From positions 1 through 64,000 of the forward strand of contig JADNRY010000028.1 of assembly GCA_015501585.1 (NCBI GenBank): 64,000 bases of DNA. Direction: 5' to 3'. The DNA comes from Rhodocollybia butyracea. Lineage: Eukaryota > Basidiomycota > Agaricomycetes > Agaricales > Omphalotaceae. Below are positions 20,384 through 34,437 of the stretch, one piece after another (within the stretch, counting starts at the first letter, position 1; each line of letters opens with the position of its first letter). A program made the translations under genes and the position numbers. The notes below the pieces were generated by a model that made no database searches, was not told the DNA's origin, and was given only the letters and a program-made list of their open reading frames with translations.

Positions 20384-20614
20384 TACCGTAGGCCGGACGT
20401 CCACGGTTCAAATTTTGATGTGATCTGTCAAACCGGCAAGTGACTTCGCCTTAGGGTATTATTGGTACTTTTGCTGGAGTGCTAGTATACTAATATGTAC
20501 TACTAAAGAGTGTGTGATTAGATGAGTATTAAAGAGTGGATATGCAGCAAACAAGGATTGAGTATAAAATCAATGACATCGTTGCAAATTGTGGTAGTCC
20601 ATCAATGGAACTGT

Positions 20615-23109
20615 TCAGGAAGAGTTGGAGTCTGCTTCCACATCATCTGCCTCCACCAGTACCTCCTGAGTAAGTGGATACATGTCGTTTAGTCCGAGGT
20701 TCTTGCATAAGTCCTGGCAGTCATGTTCATCAATGTAAGTGCGGATGCCCTCATCTCCCCAATCTCCAACACCTGACACTCTAGAATTTGAAAGAAAGAT
20801 GTGTCAAATGTAACAGTATAGCTACGCAGGAAAAGCGGACCCGTACCCTGACTCTGTATGCGTCATGAGGTCAAACAGAACCATGATATCCTTGCCCTCA
20901 ATATTTGTCAATGTACCTTTAATGTGTACAGTTAATCGAGCTGGGGCGCAAGACAACTAGATAATCTTACCTTAAATGTCGGCAAGCACAAGCTTCCCCT
21001 TGCTGTATCCGTAAACAAAATGGGAGAAAGCATGGATGATTGCGCTCAAACGATCGGTACGTCGGGCTTGATGGGACATCGTCCCTGTGAATTTTGTTGT
21101 TGCCGACGGCCGCCTTCGTTCTACAAGCCAAGTTGGACCTTCAGTTCCGGTATTAGTTGTACTGGACACTAGAGAGAAAGGCTCAGTCTCTTGAACCAGA
21201 TAAGTGTGTGCAATTTGAATGGCTGTTATAGGGTACTTTCAGAATGAATAAAGTTAAGGAACAAATGACCAACACTCACTGTCGACATCAATATTAGCAT
21301 TCAAGAGCTCTTCATCCAGGATACTTTTGAATGCATCAAGAAACCATTGGGCTTGAGTGAGACGAAACAAGTCATGTTCAAGTTCAATATGATTGGCTTC
21401 CTGGGATATTGAGGCTGAACGGTTCTGGGAAAGCTTGAAAAACTCTTTGAACACCAACTGGGTAACATCATCAAGTACAACCTATAAAGTTTGTGAGACA
21501 TGTCAAGCTAAACAGAATAAAGCACGTACTTGGTGAGCGGCTTTCATCGTTCCCTTTGCAAATGGAGTGCGCGCGATGTGGCCAGAAATGATAGTATTAG
21601 CCTTGACAAGTTCGCATTCCCCAGTATCATCAGTGATTCTGCAGGTAATCTTTTGTCCAACAAACTGGACATCCTCATAGATCGGTGCTTGTCCCACATG
21701 CGAAGAAAGTGAGAACTCCGATGTAGCAGGGCCTATAGGGTGATGGAATGATAACAATTTGAATACCCCACATGAAGAAAATAATCTACGTAGCGCTGAT
21801 CCCATACGCCGGCTCTTTCGTGGTCCCGAAAGAAGGGATTCTACTTGGTTGCGTTTAGCCAAACTGAAATTTTGAGTGCGGCCAGGCTCTGCCTCAATGC
21901 GGAGATTCAACTATATATTTACTTTAAACAAAGAGCGTTGGCTCAATATGAGTGGAAGCATACCGCAGTCTGGTCAATGTATATCTCCAAATACATCACG
22001 GAAAACCCGCGCACAGTCTTGCAGTGATGTTTGTAAGTTGCTGGGGCATTTGCACACACATCGCCCCTGGATGGACTGGTGTAGTATGCGTGAAAGTCAC
22101 TCATGGACAGACCAGATGTGTTGGGCTCAAGGAGCTGATTATTTGCAAAGCAGATAGTACAATCCTCACTGTCGGAGAGAACTTAACTTCCAATAAGCAA
22201 GTCAAGAGTCAAGACTTACTTATGTATGAGCTTGCGCCCATTTCGGGTATACTCCTCATTGAAAGCTCTGACAAGACATGCTTTAACGTCTTTCAAATGA
22301 AAAATTAGCAGAGTACTACTGAATCCAGAACACGAAGAAGCTTACCCAGGAGGTAATCTGATTTCGAACAACAGATCCATTGAAACCCTAAATCGGCATC
22401 AATCTTCAGAGGTTTGCTACTCAGTCGTGCCTAAGAAATTTTGTTTCAGTGGCAATAGTGCTAATTCGATGGGAGATGAACATACTTGGGCACCAATCCA
22501 TATCTTTTGATCAGCTGGAATTATCCCAGCTGCGCTGCTACGGCTAGTATTCTGCTGATGTGAAAGCAGAGTAGCAGTGTCGAGAGGTGTTCCACTGGCT
22601 CGCGGCTGGTTGTCAAGGTTCAACCGGCGCCTGGTTGCATCAAGGCGGGAAGCATTTGCATCGGACATATTGTTGCCAATGGATTGAAGGACTTTGGAAA
22701 GAACAAAATCAGTAGGTGTAAAGAATATTTGACACATGAACTTACTGTTAGCAGGTCCTTGTAATGCAACAGTGGGCGCAATGTTTCCAATTACGACAGC
22801 CCTGTTCACAATTTCAGTGCAAAGTGAATCACCGCATGTTTGCTTTTGGCCCATTGGAGGTCGAGCAAGGTTACGGCCAGTAACACCACATCCAGCACAC
22901 TGGGGCCATTTCTACACAAGATAAATGAGTGGTGGCAGATAGATAAATGTGGTACATACGATCAATTCTTCATACTCTGTGGATCCATAATTGAAGTCAC
23001 AAAGCTTCTTGCACTTCAAGCAAGTTTGATCAGGATTTTGACGACGGGGAAAGACTAGTAAGCAGTCTGGGCAGCCAGATGGGGTAGTTGAGAGAGTAAC
23101 ACTAGACAT
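20615..23109 (-). pseudogene. alpha-kinase domain protein of transposon 1 (eleven exons, one nonsense codon)
   Basis: Exons I can splice: 23109-22960, 22911-22746, 22691-22486, 22430-22346, 22289-22220, 22168-21964, 21910-21530 (possibly with one more short intron), 21481-21280, 21235-20971, 20916-20847, 20780-20615. The N-terminus has paired CxxC motifs (CPDC, CLKC, CAGCG, then C at CGDSLC), probably zinc ribbons. The middle has SMSDFHAYYTSP. The kinase core shows WLVERRR, FTGTMSHQ, AFSHFVYGYSKGKLVLADI, then DIMVLFDLMTHTESG, the glycine loop GVGDWGDEGI and the zinc-type HDCQDLC. This is the MHCK/EF2-kinase (alpha-kinase) fold, which phosphorylates Ser/Thr in proteins. The codon after LADI, glutamine in the family, is TAA (20972-20974). 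The junction near 21280/21235 does not keep frame in my splicing. Probably inactive. Confidence 0.85.
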
Positions 23110-23358
23110 TAAACCTGTAAAGACTGGATAAGTTGGATGGGGAGGTAGGTATTTCACAATGCATGTATAAATACCTTGCTAGATGGTCTGTGCACTGCTA
23201 GAACTAACGTCAGAAAATACCAGAACATTCTCTGCCCAGGTTACCTAAAGCCAAGGAATTGTAGAGAATGTTATTGAATCATATGGGGCACAGATAAAAG
23301 GCGACTCGCATTTCAGTGAAAGACAATACTTATCCTTACTGAATCCCCTTTGTTGTGG
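23110..23358. promoter_or_regulatory. bidirectional promoter region of transposon 1
   Basis: The 249 bp between the two divergent start codons. A TATA-like TGTATAAATACC lies at about 23162-23173. The corresponding region of transposon 2 (29853-30101) has exactly the same length but no obvious sequence similarity to this one. Both genes must be driven from here, so they are probably co-expressed. Confidence 0.5.
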
Positions 23359-25018
23359 ATGCCCAATTACAGTGGGAAAAATGGATACGGTGACAAAAAC
23401 TGTTAGTATCATGCATTGGCTCTTGGACCGGCAAGCAAAACTTACACTTTGAAAATGTAGATCCTCCAGACAAAGTCCTGAAAGAGAGTTTGATGAAGTA
23501 CTCACAGCGTCGACTTTCACGCGAGGAAAAGTTAACTCGCCTTCAATGTGACCATGGCTTGGACATCAAGTACGTTGTCTTTGTAGCTTGATGATTACTA
23601 TTGATGTGTGCTTGTCCCAAAAAAAATCCAAGTTGAGCAAGATCGAGAAACGGTTGCATATTCCCAGTGTCCGCTGAAATCAAATGAATCCGGGTGAGTG
23701 AATACTTGGGAAAATTTATTCCCAGTCTTAATAAAAGTTGCATCAGAGGATGTAAAACAGGCGGTGGTAGACGAAGTTGATAAAGATACGATGCAGAATA
23801 ATGGCCCAAACTTCGTGAGAACAACATTAGCACTGAAAAATGTTCACATACCTCGGTAAGTCTCATATAAAATATCTTTCATTTGCCGAAACTTACAGAG
23901 ATATGTAGAGCCACTATCCGGAAGATCATGCACAACGTCGCAGACAGTGGATTTGATCGAAGATTTTCAGGAAGGAAAGTGCCTAAAATTCCTCGAAAAC
24001 CCCAGGAAGCCATCGGTCCCTTCCATCAGAATGGCTGTGATGGACATGAGAAGTTTGCACGGTTAGCCTTGAAGATGGGAAATGCAAGTATCTCGGTATA
24101 TGGATACAAAGATAAATGGAGTGACAACATACTCAAACTCTACGCAATTCCTGATTGTCGCTCGATTGGTGCAATTGGTCACCTATGGCTTGATTTCGTG
24201 TCGGAAATAGGAGGTAAATTCATGTTTCCAGATTCTGAATGCATCATTGAACTGGTTAAAGGAATACCGATTACACTGACCATGGATAAGGGCTCTGAGG
24301 TAGGATGGCAATATACGCTTCAATGTGTCCTACGGTAAGTAAAATAAATTGACTGCTATTTGTACAATTTTGTGATGCTTACCAACGAAGGGAGATGCAT
24401 GCACCACATATAGATCCACGAACTTACCCACCTGCCGTTCAGATGAAAAGTGTCCATCATACAACAATTGAAGGTTTCTGGAAGTGGCTCCTTGAGAAGA
24501 AAGGCTTAAATATAAAGGATCACATTCTGCGGGGAAAGACAGAACATATATTCAGTGATATTGCCAGTTTCCATATGTGAGTCTCAAACAGTAAGCGTGT
24601 GTTGATATGCTGATAGCTTGATAGCGATCTTTTCCATTGGATATTCCCTCCACTAGTTCAGGAGGCACTGGATGAGTTTGGATTTTGGTGGAATGAACAT
24701 TGTGTAAGGCGCCAGCCTGAGAAGATAATGCCCTCAGGCCATATTCCTGCAGATGCATTGGAGCACCCGGAACTCTATAATGGGCTCAATTGTTTCATAA
24801 AAGTGCCCATGGAATCGGTGAATGAGCTCTGAGAGATATTGAATGAAGAGGTGGGTCCGCAGGAAAAGTACAGCCGCTGGGTCAGTGTCGAGTTTGAAGA
24901 AGAGGCTAGAAGTGCATATCAAGCTATTGGATCACCCAAAATCACGCTTGACAACAGCTGGACAGTATTTGCACATATGTCTGATGCAATTGAGACTCGT
25001 AGACAGAGTACCGTGTAA
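23359..25018 (+). pseudogene. integrase-core (DDE) protein of transposon 1
   Basis: Starts MPNYSGKNGY at 23359, like the copy at 30102. Exons: 23359-23401, 23461-23569, a poorly defined one near 23630-23680, one ending 23855, then 23899-24334, 24391-24576 and 24625-25018. The retroviral-type catalytic triad is visible: D in NGCDGHEKF, D in TMDKGSEVGWQY and E in TIEGFWKWLLEKKG. Downstream LFHWIFPPLVQEALDEF and EKIMPSGHIPADALEHP are typical of basidiomycete integrase-core proteins. Defects: an apparent 2 nt loss just after the 23898 splice acceptor, and a TGA at 24830-24832 after SVNEL; the frame continues in homologous sequence to TAA at 25016-25018. It is the likely transposase of the element, now dead. 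Confidence 0.85.
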
Positions 25019-25210
25019 CAAGTAGCCTGCAATGCCTTGCATGCACTAAATTATACACTAAACATTGGTTTGATATGCATAAGTATAGGTACGACTAAGC
25101 AATGCCGGAATATAAGCCGGACCAGTTTGAAATTTGAACTGTGGACGTCCGGCCTGGTATGAAGTAGGCGGATTGGCCGAGGTTACTTTTTTCATTTTCA
25201 TCAGACCACT

Positions 25211-26597
25211 CATCAGCAGTTACACAACCCCGTAGGAGGGCATAGGACTATGCTCCCTATGCCCTCCTATGCCCCACAATCAGGTGTGTGGCTACAAGGG
25301 GATTGCATAAACCTACACTGTCAAAATTCGTGGGTCTACACCTCCTACACTACCATATCCACACCCCCCACACTCTACATTGCCTTTCTATGGTCTCATG
25401 TCAGATGTTTACATGCTCGCTCATTCAAGTGGTAGTATGAATAAAAACATTGTATTAACTGACGGAATAACTAACACATAATATGATATACCAGTACTAA
25501 TCAACAAACCTCAAATCGCATTGCATCTCAAGTCCACAACCTCACCAAACGTCACATATGGGCTGAGTTGGAATCAGATAGAGGAGCCAATGTGGCAGAA
25601 ACACCAGAATAACTATAATTTCATTAGAATCAGAAATAATACAAGAACGAACTCAGACTCACCAATAGTGGACCACAATATGAATAAAACAACTTCGGAA
25701 ATGAGACAAATTAAACGGCTGTTGACAGAGCGTTAACGCTGGGATACTTGGTTTGCAGCAAAAATCCCAAAAACAGTACTGTACGATTGAGATGATTAGA
25801 TGGCATGCAAGTCAAAAAATAAGACACATACCATATACTACCATAGAGTCGAACAAGCTGGAAAAAAGAATAATGAGTATGAGGAAAATACATCAGAATA
25901 CACTTCAATGCACCACAGGGACTGTTTGTTGTTTTCTCCGCATGTATATACAACCATCATCCAATGGATATTCAAAACTCAATGATCAGCGGCCGTAATT
26001 GTGGAAAAGAAAGATATAACGCCCAAAGCACCCAAACATCAATGAGAGAATAGAGGCAATAGAGACGATGGAGGGAAGGGAAAAAGAGGAACAAAGACCA
26101 CGTGCATTTTTTTTGATCTTGCCTAATCATAACGTGCTCTGCCGGGCGCCGGCAACTTGGAGAAATTAATTTGGCAAAGTTCTTTCGTCTTTCAAGCTGT
26201 GTTGTTATGCTTAAGTTGCTGCATTGCTTCTTCCTTTTACCAGGAGACAGTGTCATAACATCTGTGGGAGTCGATGCAATGCTACTTGGGTCCAACTGGT
26301 GGAGAGACTCGCAATGAGTCGGAAGAAATAATCGGCCCTGGCACTGGTCGCCGACTTGCCTCAGGAAAGTAAAATTGCTCACTTACTAGTCTTGTTACAT
26401 TTGTATAGAAACATAGACTTGAATAAACTGCTTATCTCACTAACTCCGAGTCATAGTACTTAGCGTTCTGTATGTGGGGTGAATATGATATGTAGTGTGT
26501 ATGTGAGATGTAGGAGGTGTGGGATGTATGTGGGACCAAAATGGCCCATACATTTTACACCCCCTATGCTTCCTACAGGGTTGTGAATCTGCTGATG
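25211..26597. mobile_element. non-autonomous DNA element with CATCAG ends (1387 bp)
   Basis: Terminal inverted repeats of about 36 bp start CATCAGCAG and share CACAACCC, GTAGGA and GCATAGG. It sits inside the left terminal repeat of transposon 2; the uninterrupted right repeat gives the empty site (CCACTGATGCC), which shows a 2 bp duplication, CT (25209-25210, 26598-26599). The interior carries T/A-rich DNA and a 136-codon minus-strand frame (25972-26382) with no recognisable domain. The CATCAG start and 2 bp duplication are also those of the foldback family, so both may use the same transposase. Confidence 0.85.
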
Positions 26598-26599
26598 CT

Positions 26600-26879
26600 G
26601 ATGCCGATCACAGGTTCTCGGTCTGAGTATTCAAATTTATATCATATGCTTTCAATATACTAACTATTAAAATGCCCTGATAGCCTAATGGACTACGCTC
26701 CACTTCTGTGACTAAACGAAGCCTCAGCCTGGCCCCGCAGTGATGCAGGAGGTTAATCATTCAGTCCTGGCTGTCACCGTGTTTATTCCCTTCATCTAGA
26801 TATCCTAATAGATAGTAGACTAGGTCTAAAATTATCTAGTACTCTTCCTCATTGCTTTCGTCGTTGTCCTTAAGCCGTT
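26600..26879. other. left subterminal region of transposon 2
   Basis: After the end of the split terminal repeat (26623) there is a TATTCAAATTTATATC stretch and then non-coding DNA up to the kinase stop codon. At about 26673-26775 a tRNA-like pattern is present (see findings). No gene. Confidence 0.4.
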
Positions 26880-27786
26880 TTAGCCCAGTTCTTGACACTT
26901 TTTATCACAGCAGTGTTGATCAATAAATGCCTGAATGCCTTCCTGGCCAAAGTCACCGAGTCCACTGTCACTGTAGGCAGTAGTCAGTAAGCATGGCTGG
27001 ACCAGATTAGTCCCAGACCCACCCAGTTATTGTATGAGACATTACATCAAACAGGACATTAGTCTGTCCCTTACCAGCCTGATTAATCACTGATGCTATA
27101 TACACCAGTAAGTAAGTAAGATTGTTACTCCCTGCCACTACTCCCTGTCACTTACTCTGGAGATCGACAAAAACCAGTGTCTTTTCTGTCCACTCGAGTG
27201 AAAAGTGAGCAAAAATGGTCATCATTAAGCCTAGTTTGCTCCTGTGACTTGGGTGCTGCATGGTTCCAGACCACTTCTGGGTTGTCGTCTGGGGTCACTG
27301 GGGTTCGATCAACCAGATTAGAGTCTGATCTCCAGGCTCTATGCCTTTGATATCGTTACGAGTGTACCCAGAAGCCAGCGAGGGGATTTTGTCTTTTCCT
27401 GAAACCTTGACAGCGACTTGAAAATTGGTAACCTTGACTTCTACAGTGACCAATTCAGTACATCGGGTATGCTCTATGATGGATTATTTCTTACCCTGGC
27501 AGATATCAACCTTTGCTTCCAAAGCATGGGCTTTAAGTGCTTCAAGCACCTGGTGAGCTCAGGTCAGATGAAATACCTCAGATTCATCTTGGGGGACACA
27601 GGACTATTGGCACTTCTGACATTATAAAACTGTTTCGCCACATATGGTTTGTTATTGACAAGGAGCTGAATAGCATATTAGGTCCAGCGATGATAAGATT
27701 GGCTAATCTTACTCGGAAAGCTCTTTTGGGCACCCCATGATCAAGTTCAGTATCAGAAATATACCCCCCCTGGAGCTGGGTGAGAT

Positions 27787-27938
27787 TGTAACGCCTACGG
27801 CACGTTCATTGCTGTTAGCGCCGATATTACATAATTAGTCTACTCTTATCCTCATACCACATACTTGTTTCGGTCTATTTCTCTAATAGAACGAGATCTT
27901 GCTCATGGTCTGAGGCATTAAGAGTCAGGGCTCTTACA
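27787..27938 (+). repeat. 5' LTR of the small LTR element
   Basis: 152 bp, TG...CA ends, contains TCTCTAATAGAACGAGATC and a short GGCATTAAGAGTCAGGG tail. Matches 29112-29263. Confidence 0.93.
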
Positions 27939-27981
27939 CTTTTTTGAGCAACCTTGTCCTGAATAGGACTATTACAGCAAT

Positions 27982-29016
27982 ATGACCACACAACAGCACA
28001 ACTCAAGCCATGACTCTGTCATGGCTCTGGCTTACTCTTTTCTTTCTCAAATCCTTTCCATGTTCCCTCATGATCCTCTCTCACACATCTCTGGGATCCT
28101 GGACTTCTCCTCCCAGGGAATTCAACAGCTGCTAGTCAACTTTAAGCAGCTCTGGGAACAACATGGTCTTTCAGTGGCTGGTAGGGATTTGGCAGAGGCA
28201 GTGGTGCAGGATTCAACATTAAGATGTTGCTGGGCAGTGAAGGAAGAAGGTTTCCAGGCAGAGGTCTGTTTTCAGATGATAGAGTCTATTAAGAGACTGG
28301 GAGAAGAGTTTGAGATGGAACTGTCCAAATCTCAAACACCACCTCCTGCTCCAAGTTCTCCATCACCTTTGACCACTCCTACTGCCTCATCACCGACTCC
28401 CACGCTCGCTTCGAACGCATTGAATGCATTGAAATCATCTCCACATGCTCTGACATTGGTTTCACCCTCCAAACCCACTTCCCCTTCATTTCAACTCCAA
28501 CCAACCTCAGAGTTTGCACGGGAGGTGGCTGAACTGCGGAAAGCAGGCCGGAAACTCGAAGTATTCATGGATGAACATGTCATGGGGCTCGAACACACAG
28601 CTGGCACACCGCCAGCTCGTGTTCATCTCTCAAACACTCCAACCGAGTGTACACCTGTGCCTTATATTGCCCCTGTGACTGCTGTTCCACCAACAGGCCT
28701 TCGTAAACGTGTCAAACACAATGTGTATGGTGCGTTTGGTTTGCTCTTGCTTCATTCAAGTCGTTGCCCATCCCAATCTGGTACACTCATGCCATCACCC
28801 TCACCCACTGAAACTCCCCATCACCATATTTGTGCTCCCAATCAATGCTCCCATTCATGGCGCTGGAGATCTACTGTCTCCAATGTACCACCACCATTTC
28901 AATCTGGACTTAGTGTCAGCATCCAGAGAATCCGGCAATTTTCACAGGACACTTTCTCTTCTTCTGCACTTATGGAAATTGCCAGCATACTACATCGTAC
29001 GTTACCTATTAGATGA
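27982..29016 (+). CDS. gag-like protein of the small LTR element
   Basis: The 344-codon frame begins MTTQQHNSSHDSVM 43 bp after the 5' LTR and is intact. The first 110 residues are predicted mainly helical (LAYSFLSQILSMFPHDP, FKQLWEQHGLSVAGRDLAEA), followed by a Pro/Ser/Thr-rich linker (about 115-170), another helical piece (REVAELRKAGRKLEVFMDEH) and a low-complexity C-terminus. I see no zinc knuckle, protease or polymerase. By position it should be the structural (gag) protein or a captured gene; the sequence alone does not prove gag. Codons downstream of about residue 240 may not be under selection, because an alternative frame (28709-29116) is also open. Confidence 0.65.
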   Translation: MTTQQHNSSHDSVMALAYSFLSQILSMFPHDPLSHISGILDFSSQGIQQLLVNFKQLWEQHGLSVAGRDLAEAVVQDSTLRCCWAVKEEGFQAEVCFQMIESIKRLGEEFEMELSKSQTPPPAPSSPSPLTTPTASSPTPTLASNALNALKSSPHALTLVSPSKPTSPSFQLQPTSEFAREVAELRKAGRKLEVFMDEHVMGLEHTAGTPPARVHLSNTPTECTPVPYIAPVTAVPPTGLRKRVKHNVYGAFGLLLLHSSRCPSQSGTLMPSPSPTETPHHHICAPNQCSHSWRWRSTVSNVPPPFQSGLSVSIQRIRQFSQDTFSSSALMEIASILHRTLPIR

Positions 29017-29111
29017 CTGTATGTTTCTCTTTGTTATGTTTTCCCTTTTCCATCTTTCTCTTTTGTTTTTTTTGGGTAAGATGGACCTGTGGGGTCAATC
29101 TAGGGGGCATG

Positions 29112-29263
29112 TGTAACGCCTACGGCACATTCATTGCCATTAGCGCCGATATTACATAATTAGTCTACTCTTATCCTCATACCACATACTCGTTTCGGTC
29201 TATTTCTCTAATAGAACGAGATCTTGCTCATGGTCTGAGGCATTAAGAGTCAGGGCTCTTACA
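29112..29263 (+). repeat. 3' LTR of the small LTR element
   Basis: Matches the 5' LTR with few differences (for example CACATTC for CACGTTC and CCATTAG for CTGTTAG near the start). Followed by the target duplication GAGAT. Confidence 0.93.
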
Positions 29264-29852
29264 GAGATCCTCTGGCCATACCAGTTCATACTGGTCCGAA
29301 GAATCTGCATCTTTGATTTCACGAATTGAGGCATAGAGAAGATCAAATTCTAGTCACTCCAGCAGGAGTCCGGGCAACCCAGTTTGATCGCAATGGCACT
29401 GGCTGGGATGCTTTGTGCTTATCAGTTAGATATACTAGCCACTCGGTGTGCCTGCAGATCTTTGATGGCATCTGTAGCAGACGACTGGGTACCTACTAGC
29501 AAAGGAATGATTATCAGTATGAATAAGTTAAAAACAGCTACTCACTTTTTTGTTCACAACTTCCACAAAACTCCTTCCCTGGCGCCATGAACATCACAAT
29601 TGCTCCACATCCCTTGCAAAAGGGGGCAGTCTCGAAATTCTGGTTAGCATTGTGAAACTCTGATGTTATATGAATTATACACACCAACATTTTTTTGAAC
29701 CCGTCTGACCCTGGGTCGGAAATACTGAGGAATGTGCACCTGGCATATAGACCCATATCAATCTTATGATCAAAGGACATCTGGCACCCATATCCTGGCC
29801 TGGCGGGGTTGATGCAGATTTGGGGGTTATTGATATTGCTGTCAGTACTCAT

Positions 29853-30101
29853 TTTGCTGAATGCACTGCAAATAACTCGTTACCTCAAGCAGTCTCCTTA
29901 AATACATATTTTGCTGTGTTGCACAGTATGACTTCTTAGATCCTATGGCCCCTGTTATAGCAATCAACATGTCGCTCCTGATGGTGCCATGTCGCTTTTG
30001 ATGGTGACATGATAGGTACTAGGTTAGATATATAAACATCGAGCTGCTCCCCCCAAATGTTCTGTATCCTCTCCCTTTCATAAGCTTCCATATCACTGCC
30101 A
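29853..30101. promoter_or_regulatory. bidirectional promoter region of transposon 2
   Basis: 249 bp between the divergent kinase and integrase starts, the same length as in transposon 1. GATATATAAACATCG at about 30027-30041 is a good TATA element for the integrase, about 65 bp before its ATG. On the other strand TATGTATTTAAGGAG near 29900 could serve the kinase. Confidence 0.5.
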
Positions 30102-31522
30102 ATGCCAAACTATTCAGGTTCCAATGGACACTACAATGGCACTCGTAAGTTCCTTGCAGCTGATCTAATGTCTGTCTGCGCTAAACCTTTCCCAGGCCCT
30201 TCAGATGAGCGACTTCGGACTGTCTTACATGATTATGCACTGCGAGGACTCTTGCTTAGAGAACAACTTCTTTATCTTGAGCAGCAAGAACGCTACAAAA
30301 TAAGGTATATACATTAGTTTTATTGTTTAACTTATACTTATCGACGTTCACTTAGCTATTCTACACTCAAACAATTGAATCGCCAATTTGAGGTTCCGAC
30401 TGTACGGAAGCCACCTCCACTCCTGACAGCTGCTACCTATGTATCAAAAGCAGTATCAGCCAATACTGCAGCAAGAAATGGGCCAAACACAATCAGGCAA
30501 ACGATTGTTCAGCAGGATGGTGTATTGATACCTCGGTAAGTTCTGCAACTTATTATACTTCATGAACTTTGGTGCTCACTGACTATTACAGTGACACAGT
30601 TAGAGCTATCATGAAAGATAATTATTCAGAGGGAGCTGAGATTTGGTTCCCTGGAAAAAAGGTTCTGAGGCCTCGAGGACACCTTCAGCTTGGACAAGGA
30701 GTGTTTCAGGAAGTGCATTTTGATGGTCATGAAAAGCTCGGTGCAAAAGCTCTTAGAATGGGTTCGGTGAGTATTGACATATATGATGGGCGGTGCCACT
30801 CCTCAGGCAAGGTCCTTCTCATGGTGGCTGTTCCAAATGCTCACTGCTCCAGTACTATTGGGCACATCTATCTTGATTTGGTTGAGAAATATGGCAGCAA
30901 GTTTCTTATTATGACTGTTCTACCTGGGCTATAGCTGATTCCATAATTCTTCCCCAGTGGTATGTGAGAAGCTGACTGTTAATGATGGGAGCGAGACTGG
31001 AGAAATGTATGCAAGTCATGTAGCACTCTGGTATGCAAGATATCAATACATATTTATCCTTCTGTGACTGATATCACAGTAGTCAGAGACATTTTCCTGA
31101 TTTCGAATCTCGCACAGTATTTGTTGCACTTCCGAGTACTCAAAATGTTGTGATTGAAGGGTCATGGAAGCATTGGCTTTGATATCGGGGTAAAACTATA
31201 CGAGAGGCGATTGAGTTGGGACAGTCCCAGGGATACTTTAATCCGAGCAAGCCCTTTCATATGTAAATCATCTGCAATTTATCTTGGCATTTAGTTCAGG
31301 CTCATTCTTTCTCTAGTGATCTATTCCATTGGATTTGGCCCAAAATTATCCAGCAAGCTGTTGACAGCTTTATTCGCTACTGGAATGACCACAAGACAAG
31401 AAAGCAGGTCAATAGCAACCTTCCTTCAGGTGTTGCCCCGAATGTTATCTTTGATTTCCCTGCGAACTATGGCCTCAAGCTCGGATAACATTGCGCTGGA
31501 TAAGCTTGATGGTAAATCCTAA
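30102..31522 (+). pseudogene. integrase-core (DDE) protein of transposon 2
   Basis: Exon 1 starts MPNYSGSNGHYNGT and splices (CTC|GTAAGTTCC...TTTCCCAG|GC) into PSDERLRTVLHDYALRG. Further exons give YSTLKQLNRQFEVPTVRK, ANTAARNGPNTIRQ, then RDTVRAIMKDNYSEGAEIW. Catalytic residues appear as D in HFDGHEKLG, D in TVNDGSETGE and E in VVIEGSWKHWL. After HWL comes a TGA, then YRGKTIREAIELG, and a later exon with DLFHWIWPKI. A one-base insertion before DNIALDKL shifts the last frame, which stops at 31520-31522. A splice junction near 30907 does not keep frame either. Gene order and intron positions match the copy at 23359, so the two are homologous, with considerable divergence. Confidence 0.83.
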
Positions 31523-31661
31523 GGGATGCTCGAATGTGGAACATCCACTTAAAATTGCATCTCTGACAGTATAGGGCCGCTGAGAAATGCCCAAATTTAA
31601 TATCTGGAATAATAAATAAGAAAAATCTTAGGGAAGAGTCAACCTGCAGCATACAAGTTTG

Positions 31662-33090
31662 TAGGGTTTGAAGGTCCATGTCAAGTCTCGAACAAAGAGG
31701 CTTGTTAACCAGTTGTATTTAACTAATACTTCCGATCTAACAGATTCGGGGGCTGCTCGGTAGATAATGCTTACAAGAACCTAAACGTTACGGTGTTTTG
31801 GGGGTATCTTTGTATAGAGTTGGTGTGCACTATACGGGTATTGGTGACAATAAGTGTCGGGAATACGTACCTTCAATATCCTTGATATTAAAGTGAGTCT
31901 TGCTGTATTCACTCAGTAGATAATTCCTCAGGTGTTGTTCACACAAAGAATCAAGATAACAAGTGTAATTCTTGTAGGTACTGGGTTACAAAATATAGAG
32001 ACTAAAGAAAAAGGGTGTATCGATAATCCCCTCCTTTTATAGTCTTTTACATGGGAGATCATTAAGTAATTAAATATATATAGTACATGTGTTATCCTCA
32101 AGGCAAACCATGGTTTGTACAGGTAAGCCTTCCTAAGTGAGATAATGACTCGATGTAAGTCATTTAAATAGTCACATGGTCAGGCAGGCCATATCCGCAT
32201 GTTCCGCTGATCTGGTTTGTCGAGTCATTCCAAGTCATTCAGAAGGTTAGGCAACACTTGAGGACACAGTAACTTAACAATCAACAAGTATACAATGTAA
32301 TATATGTGGATTTAGGAGTGTCCCCTTCGTTACTTCTGGCATGAATTGGTTTGATACCTTACAGTCCAATCCAATTCAGTTTATTTACCAAAAATTCAAT
32401 GAATCATGAATTGGACCGGTCCATAAAATACCTAAATCTGGATGAATCATGGACCTGCACTGATTGCACTGGTGCACTGGTCCAATTCATCATAGTTCAT
32501 GCAGTTTAAATCAGTGCAAATTTAAACTGGTGCAGACTGGTCTAAACTGATTTAAACTGTACATGCATGATATGTAATGAGTGAAACAACATAAGAAACT
32601 ACTATAAAACATTCAAGTATCTATGCTCCAGGCTGCCTTACACTGCTCTGTTACCTTTGGGAAATGCTTTCCAGGTTTGGCAGTCATTGGTTGCCTGTTA
32701 AAACAGACCATGGGTAGTGCATTGTATCAGGACTGGCTCTCGGACTTGTTGCATGGCACTGTTCAATAGGTTATGAGTAGTTTTTCCAGGCCTGGCAGCC
32801 TTATATTAGGTCTTATTGTTTGAGACCATTAGAAAATATGAATTTTATGGATAAAAGTTGAAGAAAATATACTCATTTATCTAGATTATATTTACTATGT
32901 GGCTGTGCTGGTTTAGACCGGTTTAAACTGATTCTCTGCGGTTCACTTTTTTTCTGAGATTTTGATGAACCATGAATTGGACCAGGTTTAAATCATGGAC
33001 TGGTCCATCTACCATCAGTTCATTTTGCGGTTCAGTTCAGTGCAATTCATTGGTTTTATGCAGTTTATTGAATTGGACCTTCAAACCCTA
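31662..33090. mobile_element. non-autonomous hAT-type element (1429 bp)
   Basis: Terminal inverted repeats TAGGGTTTGAAGGTCCA at both ends and a perfect 8 bp target duplication, CAAGTTTG (31654-31661, 33091-33098). Both features are those of the hAT superfamily. The subterminal 700 bp on the right is full of short motifs of the type TGAATTGGACC and TTTAAACTG in both orientations, which would suit transposase binding. No transposase ORF is present. Confidence 0.88.
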
Positions 33091-33099
33091 CAAGTTTGC

Positions 33100-33596
33100 G
33101 TTTTTGATTATGTGTAGCCTCTCTCCATATGATCTATGGCTTGCAGCCATTGTAGAAAGACACTCTGTACAATCTCAACAACTTCTGCATCTTTAAATAT
33201 TGTCAATAGCTGGTTAGTCGTTCGGAAGAACATTGGCCACTAGAAATGCTGTATTTCATACAATTCCAGCTTTTCAGTCTTAAAGTCTAACTCACATCGC
33301 ATTCCTTTCCCAAAAAACTCCCCCATGCAGGTAAGAAGTCTGTGGGAGGGAGTATGGAAGGCTTCAGCTTCCACTGTTCTCATCAGGCCAGCCCCTTCAT
33401 TCTGGAGCCAGTTCCACCCTACAGAAAAATATCACAATAATGGTGAATATACATGAACATCACCCACTCAAATCATTCTTGCTTGGCCTTGGTTTGGAGG
33501 GAATGGAGGTCATAGAGGCAAAGGTCAGGCAGAGAAGCAATTCAGCACCTATATATACATAGGTATATACATCAAGCTACTGTCAAATGACTGGTA
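33100..33596. other. unassigned right part of transposon 2
   Basis: No ORF with features of a gene and no further repeat seen. Confidence 0.4.
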
Positions 33597-33969
33597 CATC
33601 AGGAAAAGCTGTTTTTGCCTAGGTGACCCCAGAGTGGCCTAAAGCAAACTAGGTGACCTATGAATCCTATGGCATCCTAGGAATTTGGGCTCGTCCCTTG
33701 CCAGTCAAGGCTCTTGAGGATTCCCTAGGCAAGCCTAGGTTTGCCCAGGTTTGCCCAGGTGCTCCTGGGGAACACCTGGGGAACACCTGGGCAAACCTGG
33801 GCAAACCTAGGCTTGTCCTGGGTCTGCCTAGGATACCCTAGGGAATCCTCAAGAGCCTTGACTGGCAAGGGACGAGCCCAAATTCCTAGGATGCCATAGA
33901 ACTCATAGGTCACCTAGTTTGCTTTAGGCCACTCTGGGGTCACCTAGGCAAAAACAGCTTTTCCTGATG
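33597..33969. mobile_element. foldback element, copy 2 (373 bp)
   Basis: Same ends and hairpin structure as copy 1 (CATCAGGAAAAGCTG...CAGCTTTTCCTGATG), same length, flanked by TA on both sides (33595-33596, 33970-33971). The centre has two GGGGAACACCT units between CCTAGG boxes. Inserted in transposon 2. Confidence 0.9.
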
Positions 33970-34123
33970 TACTATGTGTGCTGTATGCTACTTAATTGGG
34001 ATATGTATCAGTACTCTCGTCTCACAAGACCTATTACTTATATTATTGGATACACAACCTCAGCAGTGAGCACATATTATTAGATACACGGACATCAGAG
34101 ACCCAGCCGATCATGTGTCGCCG

Positions 34124-34198
34124 GACCAAGAACCTGTGATCGGCATCAGTGGTCTGATGAAAATGAAAAAAGTAACCTCGGCCAATCCGCCTACTTCA
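34124..34198 (-). repeat. right terminal inverted repeat of transposon 2
   Basis: Read on the minus strand it starts TGAAGTAGGCGG and contains GGCCGAGGTTAC and CCGATCACAGGTTCT. It is the uninterrupted partner of the left repeat (25160-25210 with 26600-26623) and serves as empty site for the element at 25211. Confidence 0.88.
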
Positions 34199-34437
34199 CT
34201 GGTATCTCCTTGGCAGTTTCGCGTACTTTACTTATATTCAGGACTTTCGTCCTTTCAGCCCTCAGTCGTTTGTATACGTACGATCTGAGGGTAAGCTTCT
34301 TTTATTTATATTACTATGAAACTTATACTTACGCTTATACTTTTAGCTAGTACTTATCCGTTTCACAGGTAATTATCTACTACAATACGAGTCGTTTGTA
34401 TACGTACGATCTGAGGCTAGTACTTATCCGTTTCACA
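34199..34437 (+). repeat. right part of the split copia LTR
   Basis: Resumes the LTR interrupted at 20383 and ends TTTCACA. It contains the duplicated TTTGTATACGTACGATCTGAGG and ATCCGTTTCACA blocks that match the 837-899 extension of the LTR at 591. About 336 bp when joined to the left part. Confidence 0.75.

Follow-up and report, generated by a model that had tools for sequence, protein, structure and literature searches.

Alpha-kinase and DDE transposase genes paired in two adjacent, putatively IS3EU-type transposons of the agaric Rhodocollybia butyracea

The DNA analysed here is a stretch of 64,000 nucleotides (the window; positions 1 to 64,000 of contig JADNRY010000028.1, referred to below as C583) from the genome assembly of Rhodocollybia butyracea (95.6 Mb, 1381 contigs), an agaric of the family Omphalotaceae. 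It contains two adjoining elements, element 1 (20384..25155) and element 2 (25160..34198), each with a minus-strand gene for a predicted alpha-kinase and a plus-strand gene for a putative transposase placed head-to-head. They are very probably two cut-and-paste transposons of the IS3EU type in which the kinase is a conserved accessory. A preliminary description of this DNA had proposed two adjacent elements with terminal inverted repeats (TIRs) and the same head-to-head kinase and integrase genes, and this was confirmed by self-comparison of the sequence, by Pfam and by transposase matches.

Element 1, classed as an IS3EU-type transposon, starts with the left terminus TACCGTAGGCCGGACGTCC and was delimited by its self-inverted repeat and by comparison with the copy on contig C850. 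Its TIR comprises 26 bp with 96% identity in self-comparison (20390-20415 / 25130-25155). The right terminus in the window can be placed only to within a few bases; it abuts the CTGGTA duplication of element 2 and lacks about 10 bp of the tip that is complete in the C850 copy. The alpha-kinase gene (20615..23109, minus strand, 12 exons in an approximate model) encodes N-terminal CxxC motifs and a C-terminal PF02816 domain, and the transposase gene (23359..25018, plus strand, 7 exons in an approximate model) encodes an integrase-core protein of the DDE type. Since strict splices lost the frame, in-frame pieces were used for searches, and exon limits of all gene models may be off by at least one base. 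The locus occurs twice in the assembly, on C583 and C850; with a match of 98.5-99.4% and a common left flank these copies were read as two alleles, which the sequences fit.

Element 2 has a TIR of 54 bp (TGAAGTAGGCGGATTGG...; 98% in self-comparison), the inner part of which (26598-26623 / 34124-34149) is split from the left end by a nested insert. The element carries an alpha-kinase gene (approximate limits 26860..29880, minus strand), likewise with N-terminal CxxC motifs, and a transposase gene of about 7 exons (30102..31488, plus strand). Target duplications of 6 bp had been claimed for both elements. This held for element 2, which is flanked by exact copies of CTGGTA (25154..25159 and 34199..34204, plus strand), but not for element 1 in the window, where no direct duplication was seen when its flanks were compared with those on C850; the C850 copy has the 7-bp sequence GCCTGGT at both sides.

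The transposases of both elements start with MPNYSG and the first two exons measure 43 and 109 nt in both models, in agreement with the common start and intron positions noted earlier. Their identity is only 34-41% over the matched pieces, so the elements are no recent copies of each other. Two adjoining copies with the same layout might also be host genes whose pair was duplicated in tandem, with no transposon involved. However, the divergence of the transposases, the different TIRs of the two elements and the recurrence of the pair, with TIRs, on four more contigs (with direct repeats on three of them) speak against such a duplication, which is hardly credible.

How regular the pairing is was assessed from all places of the elements' transposase clade and of the kinase found in the genome, the counts being lower bounds of the searches. 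The 18 transposase places correspond to 15 loci after three allele pairs were merged (two C583/C850, one C1173/C777), and the 16 kinase places to 13 loci (two C583/C850 pairs and C1083/C32 merged; C759, C459 and C816 kept separate). Both genes are held by 6 of the 15 non-allelic transposase loci, namely elements 1 and 2 and the loci on C180, C525, C472 and C823. All six pairs are enclosed by inverted repeats, on the strength of which a host gene pair was rejected and the earlier claim that the pair forms one mobile unit gains support. Direct repeats of 6-7 bp surround five of the six (for element 1 only in the allele), with exact 6-bp duplications at C525 (ACTGCC) and C823 (AACGAG) and GTACTAG at C180. 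The layout is head-to-head in elements 1 and 2 and at C180, and tail-to-tail at C525, C823 and C472. Among the remaining transposase loci, C1173/C777 contains only a 17-residue kinase trace (E 0.03), while C550, C994 and C339 lie outside the fetched DNA. Two further kinase loci, C712 and C1083/C32, are accompanied by transposase remnants.

The broad PF24764 family behaves differently: none of 50 places found with the hidden Markov model (alleles unmerged, elements 1 and 2 excluded) lies within 10 kb of any of the 16 kinase places, the nearest being 11.6 kb away. The search for kinase neighbours of integrase-core genes, as proposed in the preliminary description, was thus negative for the family as a whole and positive for the clade of the two elements. 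Comparison of 6/15 with 0/50 indicates that the kinase is tied to this clade and not to integrase-core genes at large. The pairing of kinase and transposase is not incidental.

By fragment comparison, three groups of transposases were distinguished: element 1 with two Mycena proteins, C620, C628 and C777; element 2 with C180 and C929; and C525 with C823 and C472. The kinases were grouped as element 1 with C1083, Mycena and Hypholoma; element 2 with C180; and C525 with C823 and C472. Both proteins therefore fall into the same three clades, as had been anticipated for a unit inherited together. The similarity matrices of the two proteins were correlated over eight pairs (matches at E <=1e-3) with r 0.69, a value reached in 8 of 5000 permutations, and over the six own-genome pairs with 0.72 (4 of 720, same cut-off). 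At other cut-offs the correlation was 0.64-0.69 (14, 8 and 10 of 5000), or 0.68-0.73 for own-genome pairs only (17, 4 and 19 of 720), and with all weak matches included it was 0.55 (6 of 5000). Outside this genome, kinase and transposase matches fall on contigs of the same size in Mycena crocata (122,350) and Mycena pura (379,723), which places them on the same contig and does not imply adjacency.

Codon positions 1/2/3 of the C525 and C823 copies differ by 28/20/57% in the kinase (577 codons) and by 18/9/45% in the transposase (407 codons), which indicates purifying selection on both genes, stronger on the transposase. The ratio of nonsynonymous to synonymous divergence (dN/dS) of this transposase pair is 0.08; synonymous divergence of the kinase is saturated, so that no ratio is given for it, and a rough value of 0.16 was set aside because it mixed overlapping frames. 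A weaker signal, from two damaged copies, came from the kinases of element 1 and C1083 (dN/dS 0.37, 97 codons), and the C628 and C777 transposases gave a rough dN/dS of 0.71, as for decayed copies. The kinase and the transposase appear to be inherited and conserved as one unit.

The kinase could alternatively be a passenger that rides along with the transposon and serves the host or nothing, comparable to the TET/JBP genes, for which Kojima 2025 (PMC12730594) argues passive transfer. In line with this, the kinase is absent from the fetched DNA at 5 of the 15 transposase loci (C620, C628, C929, C739 and C478, of which C478 is cut by the end of its contig) and the transposase from that of 5 of the 13 kinase loci (C759, C459, C816, C1227 and C647). 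Since decay or a change of partners is what a passenger should show, the common three clades and the codon constraint on the C525/C823 kinase count against it, as do the N-terminal CxxC motifs present in the kinases of all three clades; we consider a passenger improbable. The incomplete pairing nevertheless weighs against the kinase as a conserved accessory of these transposons, together with several other observations. No clean duplication was found at the ends of the C472 element, and joining the flanks of C525 and of C180 yielded no empty site matched across the junction in this assembly. The C180 kinase is narrowly closer to a Mycena protein (125 bits) than to element 2 (104 bits), the best match of element 2 being C180, and only two of the four kinases from outside this genome lie on a contig with a transposase match.

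The ends of element 2 belong to the same unfavourable group. Ends of this type (roughly TGACGWARGCGGATTGGCCGAGGTTAC...) occur at 30 sites of the genome with up to 2 mismatches. Two of them, at C976:4240-11780, have no transposase of this clade between them, and the TIR is missing from the nearest relatives of element 2: the C180 element ends differently, and the TIR was not found in the C929 stretch at up to 6 mismatches. Since it is common to C976 and missing from the nearest transposase relatives, the outer TIR of element 2 may be that of another family. The TIRs would then come from an unrelated transposon, with an older kinase-transposase element nested inside it without visible ends of its own, a possibility favoured by the 30 sites, by C976 and by the termini TAGCGC of C180, a close paired relative. 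Against it, exact 6-bp duplications flank both element 2 and an element at C439 (~345478-347450) that has ends of the same type and GTAACA duplications; GTAGGCGG occurs at one and the same offset in TGAAGTAGGCGG, the end of element 2, and in TACGGTAGGCGG, the end of the element 1 type, and no alternative inverted pair around both genes was detected at the cut-offs used. We therefore regard foreign ends as unlikely, if worth keeping in mind. Read by eye, the C976 stretch encloses a frame resembling a NACHT-type nucleoside triphosphatase.

If elements 1 and 2 are transposons with a kinase of their own, the DDE transposase, with its retroviral-integrase-like core, would bind the inverted repeats and excise the element, and insertion at staggered cuts would generate the duplications of 6 bp, sometimes 7 bp. 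The alpha-kinase would belong to the element, having been co-inherited with the transposase since before the split of the three clades and kept under purifying selection, and it would help the element's own spread through phosphorylation of the transposase, alone or in complex with the transposon ends, so as to set its activity or nuclear entry. The transposase or its complex with the ends as the kinase target is our leading guess, a tentative one. The kinase might instead act on host factors of silencing, chromatin or repair and thereby let the element evade silencing or gain access to open targets. In favour of this is the view, given in PMC12730594, that TET/JBP proteins on other fungal transposons counter methylation-based silencing; the tight co-inheritance of the two genes is the sole point that favours the transposase as the substrate, and action on host factors is a possibility, if a doubtful one.

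A DDE integrase-type catalytic core is present in homologues of the element 1 transposase, as judged from their alignment and from the structure model of homologue P0002, which supports the proposal that the integrase-core protein is the transposase. The top rows obtained with the P0002 model were TnsB, IS and IstA transposases in Foldseek, at low TM-scores, and retroviral integrases in VIA-align. PF24764 was found in P0002 and P0011 and was just below the cut-off in P0001, an R. butyracea protein that is the nearest database match to the element 1 transposase (90% identity across 86% of the query) and corresponds to the C850 copy as modelled in the database. In the alignment of 23 transposase homologues, the columns that are invariant or almost so contain no HHCC zinc motif set, and the lack of this set is listed as a feature of IS3EU/GingerRoot in PMC10045372. 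The search of PDB sequences with the transposase profile gave no match up to E 1. A number of the 50 further PF24764 places fall within open frames some 300 codons long.

TACGG ends are found at C525, C472, C823 and C739, and element 1 has TACCG at the left and, in the C850 copy, TACGG at the right; element 2 ends in TG..CA and C180 in TAGCG. The duplications measure 6 bp at element 2, C525, C823, C739 and C439, and 7 bp at the C850 copy of element 1 and at C180. The C739 copy is a deletion derivative of 1,955 bp with element-1-like ends, a piece of the transposase and GATGAG on each side. By the ends TACGG..CCGTA, the 6-bp duplications and the DDE transposase, compared with printed descriptions, the elements are placed as probable TET-free members of IS3EU, and the comparison with this superfamily made in the preliminary description was right with respect to termini and duplications. 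In the part of PMC10045372 available, IS3EU/GingerRoot elements in general have TA..TA ends (GingerRoot occasionally TG..CA), usually 6-bp duplications and a DDE transposase, as here, whereas the word kinase is absent from that text. For IS481EU, a single encoded protein and duplications close to 4, 15 or 25 bp in size are described there, features that these elements do not show. KDZ and IS481EU identities were rejected because their duplications are of other size.

The minus-strand protein is by profile and motifs an alpha-kinase, with predicted activity. Pfam matches were obtained at C583:20705-21220 (E 3.1e-14) and C583:27031-27345 (E 3.2e-7), with PF02816 scores of 58.8 and 36.2 bits against a cut-off of 21.3, and three homologues, in which the kinase is the sole Pfam domain, scored 78-99 bits. 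The query of full size found no homologue, attributed to the search tool taking words from the first 500 residues, and the kinase part alone retrieved four proteins outside this genome. The N-lobe lysine and the H.C...C zinc motif are present in all four and DLQG in three (P0097 differs there). Across the three clades the lysine, DxQG and zinc motifs are recognisable, for the lysine of the C525 clade via alignment of hand-picked pieces only. The predicted structure of the kinase, based on 4 sequences, has a mean pLDDT (predicted local distance difference test score) of 36, too low for use. The element kinases resemble MHCK A, eEF2K, ALPK1 and the TRPM7 kinase in the C-terminal DxQG and H.C...C zinc motifs but differ from them in the N-terminal CxxC region. 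A separate repeated type of alpha-kinase, with near-identical 297-codon frames, is seen at C759, C459 and C816, with a 97% match between C759 and C459 across 1.8 kb; there is no transposase of the clade in the DNA fetched around them.

The suggestion that a unit of kinase and integrase was unreported did not stand. In the accessible text of Kojima 2025 (PMC12730594), all TET+ IS3EU families, from Pucciniales and Tuber indicum, have the TET/JBP gene between oppositely oriented transposase and alpha-kinase genes. The opposite orientation and the 6-bp duplications are as found here, and the rust ends TAYGG..CCRTA match TACGG..CCGTA of C525, C472, C823 and C739. Unlike those families, the present elements come from an agaric, with TG..CA ends in element 2 and TAGCG in C180, and show two layouts, whereas the text states opposite orientation without saying which. 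The genome search for TET/JBP (PF12851) gave 4 matches, all below the cut-off and none on a contig bearing a pair. KDZ and other fungal transposons with TET/JBP genes, thought to aid escape from methylation-based silencing, likewise carry an enzyme not concerned with transposition, although both transposases and accessory enzyme differ (PMC12730594). As far as this source goes, the pairing is already printed but little studied, and here a TET-free agaric member is described; what is added is that the two genes have congruent relationships, that their codons are constrained and that they occur in two layouts.

If a transposon encodes a kinase and retains it alongside the transposase, this would be an uncommon means of controlling its own behaviour or that of the host. 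The alpha-kinase family is highly expanded in rusts, with 79 and 39 members in two columns of a table in PMC4469406. In the available texts of PMC4469406 and PMC5295586 the alpha-kinases are not tied to a transposon; subscription literature was mostly outside the search. Should the pairing be general, many of the expanded rust alpha-kinases would be transposon genes, not to be taken for host signalling. A wider reading has slightly less than even odds: fungal IS3EU elements of agarics, rusts and truffles would possess a dedicated kinase that co-evolved with their transposase and on which transposition depends or by which it is modulated, and most of the expanded alpha-kinases of rust and mushroom genomes would then be genes of transposons and not of host signalling.

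The copies of elements 1 and 2 in the window look defective. In element 1 an in-frame stop lies inside the catalytic DxQG motif of the kinase (end of exon 10) and another in exon 7 of the transposase, about 60 residues upstream of where homologues end; a second transposase stop, in the modelled exon 3, was left uncounted because the P0001 model splices past it. The C850 copy shows a local tandem duplication across transposase exon 2 (C850:93356-93699). Element 2 has in-frame stops in the kinase and transposase genes and at least four nested inserts. The first (~25212..26597, with own inverted ends CATCAGCAG..CACAACCC) sits in the left TIR, and the kinase gene is interrupted by a small long terminal repeat (LTR) element (27787..29263, plus strand) with 152-bp LTRs 97% alike, a 5-bp duplication GAGAT and an open frame of 342 codons read as gag-like. 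The others are an insert at 31661..33091 with 17-bp inverted ends GTAGGGTTTGAAGGTCC and AAGTTT on each side, and a near-palindromic insert of about 379 bp (33594..33972), a related copy of which lies within the C180 element. A piece of the LTR element recurs at C816, where a different alpha-kinase lies some 1 kb away.
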